Shown piece after piece: positions 42,964-45,241 of a stretch of 64,000 nt of DNA. Within the stretch, counting starts at the first letter, position 1. Every line of letters starts with the position of its first letter. The DNA is from Nibricoccus aquaticus (GTDB lineage: Bacteria > Verrucomicrobiota > Verrucomicrobiia > Opitutales > Opitutaceae). The notes beneath the pieces were generated by a model. It did no database searches, was not told where the DNA came from, and saw only the letters and a program-made list of their open reading frames with translations. Location: NCBI RefSeq assembly GCF_002310495.1, contig NZ_CP023344.1, positions 3,489,501 through 3,553,500 of the forward strand, written 5' to 3'. Made by a program: the position numbers and the translations under genes.

Positions 42964-43059
42964 GGCCAGGTGCCATGCATGGGCAGGCGCGTGAACTCCG
43001 CCAGGACCGGAAGGTAGCAACGGCAACGACGTCCTCCTAGTGCCGTGGAGTGCCTGGCC
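42964..43059 (+). ncRNA. ffs: Signal recognition particle RNA, small bacterial type
   Basis: The end stem is GGCCAGG (42964-42970) with CCTGGCC (43053-43059). The conserved M-domain-binding helix 8 contains CCAGGACCGGAAGGTAGCAA (43001-43020), the SRP hallmark with the GGAA tetraloop-type turn. The length is about 96 nt, like E. coli 4.5S RNA. TTTTATTTTT follows at 43062-43071 as a likely terminator tail. It precedes dnaX, an arrangement common in bacteria. Confidence 0.92.
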
Positions 43060-43211
43060 ACTTTTATTTTTCAGGAAGGAGTTTGGCGGGATCGGCGGTG
43101 GCCAGGGCGGTATAAACTGACGGCTTCCGGTTAGGCGAGGGATCGGGCATGGTCGGCGGCACGCGGCAATCCCGGTTCGTTGTGGATCGGGTACTGCCGC
43201 CCCAAAACCCT

Positions 43212-43403
43212 ATGAAAAAGTTCCTGCTGGCCCTAGCGGCCGTGATGGTACTCGGCGGCACTTCGGTGTTTGCCTCGGATAGCAAGGATCACGCAAAGGA
43301 AGAAAAGAAGGCAGAGTGTGCAGCGTGCAAAGAAAAGGGCTCGATGTGCGACGCGTGCAAAAAGAAGGCGGAAGATAAAGCCAAAGAACATCCGAAGCCC
43401 TGA
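43212..43403 (+). CDS. Small exported cysteine-rich protein
   Basis: A 63-residue protein. The first 21 residues (MKKFLLALAAVMVLGGTSVFA) are a signal peptide. The mature part is very Lys/Glu-rich and holds CAACKEKGSMCDACKKK, two CxxC pairs seven residues apart, which could bind a metal or form disulfides. The function is unknown. It is followed by a terminator. Confidence 0.65.
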   Translation: MKKFLLALAAVMVLGGTSVFASDSKDHAKEEKKAECAACKEKGSMCDACKKKAEDKAKEHPKP

Positions 43404-43486: not shown

Positions 43487-43556
43487 AAGAGCGAGAGTGG
43501 GCGGACGGTTAATTTTCAGTTGCAGGAAGAGGCGGCGTGCGTGGAGTAGCGGACTC

Positions 43557-44720
43557 TTGTCCACCGGTTACCAAGTCATCGCCCGCAAATGGCGCCCGCA
43601 GACGTTCGACGATGTCGTCGGGCAGGATCATGTGGTGCGGACGTTGAAGAACGCCATCGCGCGCAACCGGATCGCGCACGCGTATCTGTTCGTGGGACCG
43701 CGCGGAACGGGGAAAACTTCGACCGCGCGTATTTTTGCGAAGGCGCTGAATTGCACGGATGGGCCGAAGGCGGATTTCGATCCGAAAGACCCGGCGTGCG
43801 TGTCGATTGCCGAAGGCTCGCATCTCGACGTGATCGAGATCGACGGTGCTTCGAACAACGGCGTGGAGCAGGTGCGCGATTTGCGCGACACGGTCCAGTA
43901 CGCGCCGGCGCAGGGTAAGTACAAAATCTACATCATCGACGAGGTGCACATGCTCTCGACGGCGGCATTTAATGCTTTGCTGAAGACGCTCGAGGAGCCG
44001 CCGCATCACGTGAAGTTCGTGTTCGCGACGACCGATCCGCAGAAGGTGCTGCCGACGATCATCTCGCGCTGCCAGCGTTTTGACCTGAAGCCGATTCCGG
44101 CGGATTTGATCGTGCTGCGGCTGAAGAAAATCGCCGACGAGGAGAAAATCAAAGTCTCGCCCGAGGCGCTTTCGTGCATCGCGCGCATGGCGGATGGCGG
44201 GATGCGTGATGCGCAGTCGATCCTCGACCAGATGATTTCGTTTTGCGGAACGGAGATTGCCGAGCCGGACGTGCTGGATGTGTATGGCCTCGTGTCGGCC
44301 GAAAAAATCGCGGCGCTGGCGGCGGCGCTGGCGGCGGGCGATCATCCGAAGATCATCGAGATCGTGGATGCGTGCGATCAGGCCGGACGCGATCTGGTGC
44401 GGTTGTTGACGGACCTGCAGGAGCTCGTTCGCAAGGCGTTGCTCGATGCGATCGGCAAGGGCGGGAAGACGGACATTCTCGGAGGCCTGCCGATGACGAC
44501 GGAGCAGATCACGCGCTTGCTCGATGGACTGCGTGAAGGCGAAGGCAGCGTGAAGCTCGGGCTATCGGAGAAGATCAATTTCGAGGTGACGTTGCTCAAA
44601 GCGGTCGAGGCGAGCCGGGCGCGGGCGATCGATTCGCTCATCAAAGAGCTGAGCGCGCTGGCTGAGCAATCGCCGGAGTCATCCGCCGCCACTGAGGGCG
44701 GCGAAAAAAAAAAGGACTGA
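43557..44720 (+). CDS. dnaX: DNA polymerase III subunit gamma (short dnaX product)
   Basis: The clamp-loader ATPase (387 residues in this frame). The N-terminal [20 protein letters not shown], Walker A GPRGTGKT (47-54) and [20 protein letters not shown] are typical, and the zinc module is shortened: only a few of its cysteines are kept. The start is taken at TTG 43557, one turn before YQVIARKW, since no ATG is available; a GTG at 43497 is less likely. The zero frame ends at TGA 44718-44720, three codons after an A10 tract; the -1 frame continues to 45241. Confidence 0.92.
44694..44720 (+). other. Probable dnaX slippage site (A10 tract)
   Basis: Ten A residues at 44704-44713 lie just after GAGGG (44694-44698), a Shine-Dalgarno-like element, and before the zero-frame stop TGA (44718-44720). 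In E. coli dnaX a -1 ribosomal frameshift at A6G, stimulated by an upstream Shine-Dalgarno, makes gamma; in Thermus, RNA polymerase slippage on A9 makes both forms. The A10 run here could use either mechanism. No strong downstream stem is obvious. Confidence 0.75.
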
Positions 44721-45241
44721 TTGAGCAGCTCGATGAGCGCGTGGCGCAGGCCATCGCGGATATCGCGGAGCAGCGGAAGGCGTTGGGGATAGTTTCGGCG
44801 GTGGTTGTCGCGGGCGGAAGCAGCGAGCGCGGGACGAAAGCGGGCGGAAGCGATGGCTCGTCGGCGCGTGCGGGTGGGGCAGGAGATTCGGATGCGGAGA
44901 GCGATGCGGAAGTCGCGACGCTGCCGCGTGCGGAGACCGATGCGGCGCTGGCGGATGCGGCGAGCGCGCCGTTCGATGAAGACGGGCCGAACTGGCCGAG
45001 CGCGGCGGATGAAGCGGCGTTTATCGGTGGCGAGAAGGAGCAGGTACGCACGGTGCCGAAGGCGGGCGGAGCGGTGACGCTGCGTCAGGAAGCGGAGCAG
45101 GCGGAGGCGGCGCTGGGGCCGCTGCCGAGTATCGATGCGTTGATCGCGAAAATTCCGGCGGAGGCGCGGGAGACGCTGGAGGATCTTTTCCGACCGAAGT
45201 TTACGGGCGTGAAGCGGGTGTCGAAGGACGTGTTGAAGTAA
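44714..45241 (+). CDS. dnaX: Tau-specific C-terminal segment of dnaX (-1 frame)
   Basis: After a -1 shift on the A10 tract, translation continues [20 protein letters not shown] for about 175 residues to TAA 45239-45241, giving a tau of about 561 residues. The segment has an Ala/Gly/Asp-rich linker and then a basic end, [19 protein letters not shown] followed by [19 protein letters not shown], the likely polymerase- or helicase-binding part. The open frame starts before the A-tract and has no start of its own near it. Confidence 0.7.

Follow-up and report, generated by a model that had tools for sequence, protein, structure and literature searches.

A conserved A10 tract in dnaX as a probable slippage site for the gamma and tau subunits, with a tau register that changes across the order

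The dnaX gene of the window (the whole stretch of 64,000 nucleotides analysed here) is very probably a programmed transcriptional slippage gene that yields two proteins, the gamma and tau subunits of DNA polymerase III, at a tract of ten A's (A10; positions 44704-44713, plus strand). The zero frame stops immediately past this tract and the -1 frame continues for a further 175 codons. This architecture is conserved among relatives, and the frames that do not encode tau are closed just past the tract in clear excess over expectation. From these observations, made on sequences, we infer that RNA polymerase is the slipping agent and that both proteins are produced.

The window belongs to a complete genome assembled as a single contig of 4.73 Mb, whose nearest named relatives are Opitutaceae (Verrucomicrobiota). 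The labels Opitutaceae (own family) and Opitutales (order), used below for the compared genomes, are presumptive and were taken from these named relatives. The zero frame of dnaX (43557-44720, plus strand; 387 codons, ending in GGEKKKD and a stop) probably starts at the TTG at 43557, with an alternative in-frame GTG at 43497 likewise open. In profile searches its product matches TIGR02397 (dnaX_nterm, 433 bits) and domain III (PF12169), and the solved chains matched in a PDB search are DNA polymerase III gamma/tau subunits. Across the tract, the zero frame reads GAA AAA AAA AAG GAC TGA and ends at the TGA at 44718-44720, whereas the -1 frame (44714-45241, plus strand; 175 codons and a stop) encodes the putative C-terminal tail of tau and remains open up to the TAA at 45239-45241. 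Both features had been described in an earlier reading of this DNA (hereafter the sequence-only reading) and are borne out by the sequence. The third (+1) frame, on which that reading is silent, is closed by a TGA at 44722-44724 (plus strand), which is formed by an ATT isoleucine codon followed by GA. Searches of the tail against Pfam, NCBIfam and the PDB gave no match. The upstream neighbour of dnaX, mentioned for context, is a gene for a small SRP RNA (RF00169, 61.5 bits; 42964-43062, plus strand), located about 500 bases before dnaX; a short ORF between the two (43149-43403) has a signal-like start and a body rich in lysine and cysteine.

According to the mechanism that we propose, RNA polymerase would realign on the A10 tract and produce mRNAs with varying numbers of A's. 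Messengers that are unslipped, or changed by multiples of three, would run into a stop within two codons past the tract and direct the synthesis of gamma. Those lengthened by one A, alone or together with a multiple of three, would bring the -1 frame in line and direct the synthesis of tau, longer by 175 residues, with a predicted size of about 561 residues as against about 387 for gamma. Messengers read in the third frame would stop at 44722-44724 and also give a protein of gamma length.

No other single-base run in the window is as long as the A10 tract, and nowhere else in the 4.73-Mb genome, on either strand, do ten or more A's stand in a row; exactly nine A's occur at 12 other places, which were inspected for open frames. 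From base composition, the number of A10 runs expected by chance is a few tenths per strand, so that this rarity by itself proves little. What does exceed chance is that nine or more A's in a row stand at the same place of dnaX in all 147 judgeable loci of the own family (122 A10, 23 A9, one A11 and one A12). Tau is in the -1 register in 145 of these 147 loci; the two exceptions, G100 (A12) and G031 (A11), have tau in the zero frame. Homopolymers are error-prone, and the A11 and A12 family loci do join head and tail in one frame, as would be expected if the A10 were a sequencing or assembly error for a real tract of 9 or 11 A's with one continuous frame. However, 145 of the 147 family loci, each from a different genome, agree in register, and all three registers are represented among assemblies with no more than two contigs (-1 in G000, 0 in G218 and +1 in G230). 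The sequence-only reading had itself raised an error in homopolymer length and named the tract length in relatives as one of the points to examine; the nine or more A's found there in every judgeable family locus exclude this option. We thus give an error very little credence, and the compared sequences indicate that it is already refuted for the own family.

These counts come from the following sample. For the own family, 200 genomes were searched and 188 matched, and 152 of these 188 loci were read; for the order, 273 genomes were searched and 253 matched. From other families, 144 of the 218 matched genomes were read, 114 of them among the matches listed and 30 chosen for wider family cover. 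This gives 296 loci from 296 genomes, 269 of which combine a tract of nine A's or more with a tail that could be read. Left out were five own-family loci ending before the tract, two loci (L219 and L230) with a tract whose tail is lost at a contig end, and 20 loci without a run of at least nine A's. Eighty named loci from genome_contigs were read separately and stand outside these counts, with possible overlap of genomes. The locus statistics ignore shared descent, except for the counts made on a tree, which was built with FastTree from the N-terminal part of DnaX.

The pattern of substitutions indicates that the tails are coding in the tau frame. Between near family tails, differences at the first, second and third codon positions of the tau frame number 348, 277 and 1070, respectively, in at most 28 tail pairs (28 passed the filter, and out-of-frame pairs were skipped). 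Nearly all tails (265 of 269) ended within the fetched DNA. By eye, the C-termini are alike in families with several registers, such as f1 and f2. A C-terminal motif was present in 122 of 201 tails at -1, 3 of 40 at 0 and 4 of 24 at +1; this motif is too narrow, and the likeness of tails across registers is therefore drawn from reading the sequences. The tail might also be thought of as a separate protein translated by re-initiation past the gamma stop, and a GTG at 44741 indeed starts an ORF of 166 codons. We find this scarcely credible, as the head and the tail share one frame in 40 of the 269 order loci and the first ATG, GTG or TTG of the tail has no fixed place (the commonest place accounts for 34 of 142 family tails).

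Across the order, the register of tau is -1 in 205 loci, 0 in 40 and +1 in 24 (n = 269), with tract lengths of A10 (211 loci), A9 (50), A11 (5), A12 (2) and A13 (1). Mapping the registers on the tree gave 20 changes; collapsing branches with support below 90 or below 95 left at least 17. Shuffled labels required 60.7 changes on average (range 56-64), so that the register appears inherited yet mobile. Only two of the 20 changes fall within the own family. Changes can be observed between close relatives: G047 (A10, tau at -1) and G100 (A12, tau at 0) are 96.7% identical, and G396 (A9, tau at 0) and G405 (A10, tau at +1), with 93.9% identity and near-identical flanks, are one A apart. G031 and G069 form a further pair that differs in register. 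As many of the assemblies are drafts, individual cases may be errors; this is countered by registers common to whole groups, such as +1 in 5 of 5 loci of family f16 and 0 in 11 of the 12 loci of family f2 that have the tract. The near fixation of the register in the own family (145/147) suggests that it matters in this family which product is encoded directly; this would not be expected of a polymerase that scrambles the frames completely.

Registers that differ among some near relatives, together with the ease with which A10 tracts mutate, could also point to phase variation at the DNA level, in which replication slippage at A10 would switch cells between a gamma-only and a tau-producing state. 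The data speak strongly against it, as 145 of 147 family loci have one and the same register and the labels follow the tree, with 20 changes versus 60.7 for shuffled labels. Moreover, tau joins the polymerases and the helicase, so that cells lacking it would be unlikely to live. We therefore consider such switching very improbable and retain slippage during transcription as the preferred reading.

A few loci depart from the common layout. Within one genus code (g117), L251 (G390) has tau in one frame without a tract, and L248 (G418) has an A12 tract with tau at +1. In two families with small genomes, f28 (all three loci read) and f27 (two of three), the zero frame ends at 349-369 codons and there is no A9 tract (L286, L295, L297, L285 and L294), as if gamma alone remained; the third f27 locus, L296, has a dnaX of 431 codons. 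In L153 (G353) and L209 (G431), the zero-frame stop lies where gamma would end, and the A run is six long or absent; these genes may be damaged, misassembled or differently decoded. L239 (G334) has an A8 tract past which the 0 and -1 frames are each open for about 190 codons. Finally, some dnaX loci of Lentisphaeria, Omnitrophota, Bacteroidetes and KSB1 (L093, L094, L106, L109 and L112) have A9 or A11 tracts; tau occupies the zero frame there, and the other two frames stop within seven codons, a layout resembling that of Thermus.

Both non-tau frames reach a stop at most seven codons past the tract in 230 of the 269 loci, compared with 37.9 predicted when the codons of these tails are shuffled synonymously according to the codon use of each gene. 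The excess is present in each register (181 of 205 loci versus 24.9 expected at -1, 31 of 40 versus 6.4 at 0 and 18 of 24 versus 6.5 at +1). Nine control positions within these genes showed no such excess, the observed numbers there being near the expected ones: 14 versus 15.8, 14 versus 10.9 and 13 versus 14.7 at the tail positions, and 1 to 10 versus 0.6 to 12.0 at the N-terminal positions. In the own family, the stop in the third frame is mostly built on an isoleucine codon, which is ATT in 78 loci, ATC in 14 and ATA in one (n = 93). Elsewhere in the same genes, ATT represents 808 of 3831 isoleucine codons; among the 675 followed by GA, it is found in 92. The third frame stops at codon 3 in all 78 ATT loci and is closed by other means, at codon 4 or 6, in the ATC and ATA loci. 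Because these loci share descent (the isoleucine codon changes nine times on the tree), the size of the effect should outweigh its p value.

The closing of the +1 frame speaks for the polymerase, since polymerase slippage enters the third frame and a -1 ribosomal shift would not; such a shift offers no reason for closing this frame, although a ribosome sliding freely on poly-A could in principle also enter it. As an alternative, programmed -1 ribosomal frameshifting would take place at A_AAA_AAG (44708-44714, plus strand), the same heptamer as in the Escherichia coli dnaX signal, with swapped roles: gamma from the zero frame and tau from the shift. In this respect, Chlorobium phaeobacteroides is named as a candidate for the reversed arrangement by Atkins et al. 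(2016; PMC5009743). The heptamer lies in the zero frame in the window; 115 of the 147 loci of the own family and 150 of the 269 order loci share it, and it is concentrated at -1 (148 of 205 loci, versus 2 of 64 for registers 0 and +1 together). It is, however, absent from 30 of the 145 family loci that have tau at -1. The sequence-only reading also pointed to a GAGGG element five bases before the run. This Shine-Dalgarno-like element is present in the window (44694-44698, plus strand), but it is not conserved in the family, where we found no conserved Shine-Dalgarno element upstream of the tract: SD-like 4-mers occur in 35 of 147 loci, compared with a fraction of 0.199 of control windows.

Downstream of the tract, there is a weak folding bias. 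The mean z is -0.33 for 74 of the 147 family loci, versus 0.00 and -0.12 at control windows, and -0.45 for 123 of 124 loci of other families, versus -0.16 and 0.04 at controls; z values below -2 occur in 8-9% of cases downstream of the tract and in 0-5% at controls. This small bias would suit a ribosomal signal, but a strong structure is lacking: single-sequence folding detected no stable downstream stem-loop in the window (z of -0.88 and 0.19; two of the four sequences folded were arbitrary stretches of loci and thus uninformative). The genome encodes both tRNA-Lys(UUU) and tRNA-Lys(CUU), as determined by a tRNA family search and ARAGORN, which replaced an earlier pattern search that had given one match; the presence of tRNA-Lys(CUU) argues against the ribosomal alternative. 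So do the 64 of 269 order loci that have a similar tract and tau at 0 or +1, and since a -1 ribosomal shift cannot yield tau from the +1 register, the +1 relatives favour RNA polymerase. Frameshifting by the ribosome as the main route to tau is therefore unlikely, although less so than the other alternatives. Because the third frame is closed, the register changes, two tRNA-Lys are present and neither a conserved Shine-Dalgarno element nor a strong downstream structure accompanies the tract, we favour polymerase slippage. The sequence-only reading of dnaX as a gamma/tau gene with a slip site at A10 is thus well supported by the comparative data; of the two mechanisms between which it left the choice open, the evidence favours the transcriptional one, with a possible ribosomal share, given that the in-frame heptamer is common and concentrated at -1.

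Taken across the order, it seems likely that the two-product output of dnaX is conserved and its register is not: the tract and the closure of both non-tau frames have been kept through at least 17 changes of register, including a form with tau at +1. The tract might then act as a frame-independent splitter that shields an essential gene from indels in its own homopolymer, while selection on the register would be confined to certain families, among them that of the window (145/147). The importance of gamma, and the way in which the gamma:tau ratio is set in bacteria, have long been argued. A tract that is mostly kept, with both wrong frames closed and a moving register, argues strongly, if indirectly, for selection on both products. 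Natural pairs that differ by one base, such as G396 and G405, are well suited for testing the effect of the register on the gamma:tau ratio. In addition, intact dnaX genes will appear frameshifted or truncated to annotation pipelines in many genomes.

Slippage of this kind between gamma and tau is already known, and the swap of their frames is known in principle. Antonov et al. (2013; PMC3711429) described 17 dnaX genes from 12 genera in which tau is obtained by a -1 shift, nine of them with ten A's, and inferred transcriptional realignment for these two-ORF genes. As in their genes, the zero frame of the window gene stops right past the poly-A and the tail lies at -1, with ten A's at the shift place, which is also the case in 122 of 147 family loci. 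On its sequence features, the locus is a further member of these two-ORF A10 dnaX genes, with slippage most likely by RNA polymerase; the species list of that study (Supplementary Figure S3) may already include a gene from this order. In contrast, the +1 form, the register turnover and the test of third-frame stops are found here and not in the parts of that study compared here. Antonov et al. also took an unfixed direction of shift as a sign of transcriptional slippage, illustrated by IS transposase families with +1 and -1 poly-A members; these share the unfixed direction with the dnaX genes of the order but are mobile genes, whereas dnaX is a replication gene.

The dnaX gene of Thermus thermophilus uses transcriptional slippage (Larsen et al., 2000, as cited by Baranov et al., 2005, and Atkins et al., 2016; PMC1088944, PMC5009743) at an A9 tract late in the gene, with near stops in both other frames. 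It has in common with the window gene a run of at least nine A's behind domain III, near stops in both non-tau frames, two tRNA-Lys and the pair of gamma and tau. The difference lies in the frames: tau is the zero frame in Thermus and slippage leads to gamma, whereas in the window gamma is the zero frame and tau is at -1. Tau in the zero frame, as in Thermus, is found in 40 of the 269 order loci and not in the window. According to Atkins et al. (2016), the E. coli ribosomal site is tied to a sole tRNA-Lys, and two tRNA-Lys were suggested as a possible reason why Thermus uses polymerase slippage. The E. coli gene and that of the window share an in-frame A_AAA_AAG and the production, predicted here, of gamma and tau from one gene. 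They differ in that gamma is the frameshift product in E. coli and the zero-frame product in the window, that the SD element and a strong downstream structure are not conserved here, and that two tRNA-Lys are present instead of a sole one for both AAA and AAG. Searches of an open-access library, which leaves out most subscription journals and all supplements, brought up no account of a changing dnaX register, of dnaX genes with tau at +1 or of selection for third-frame stops. We judge the order-wide turnover of the register and the selection of stops in the third frame to be the parts worth following.
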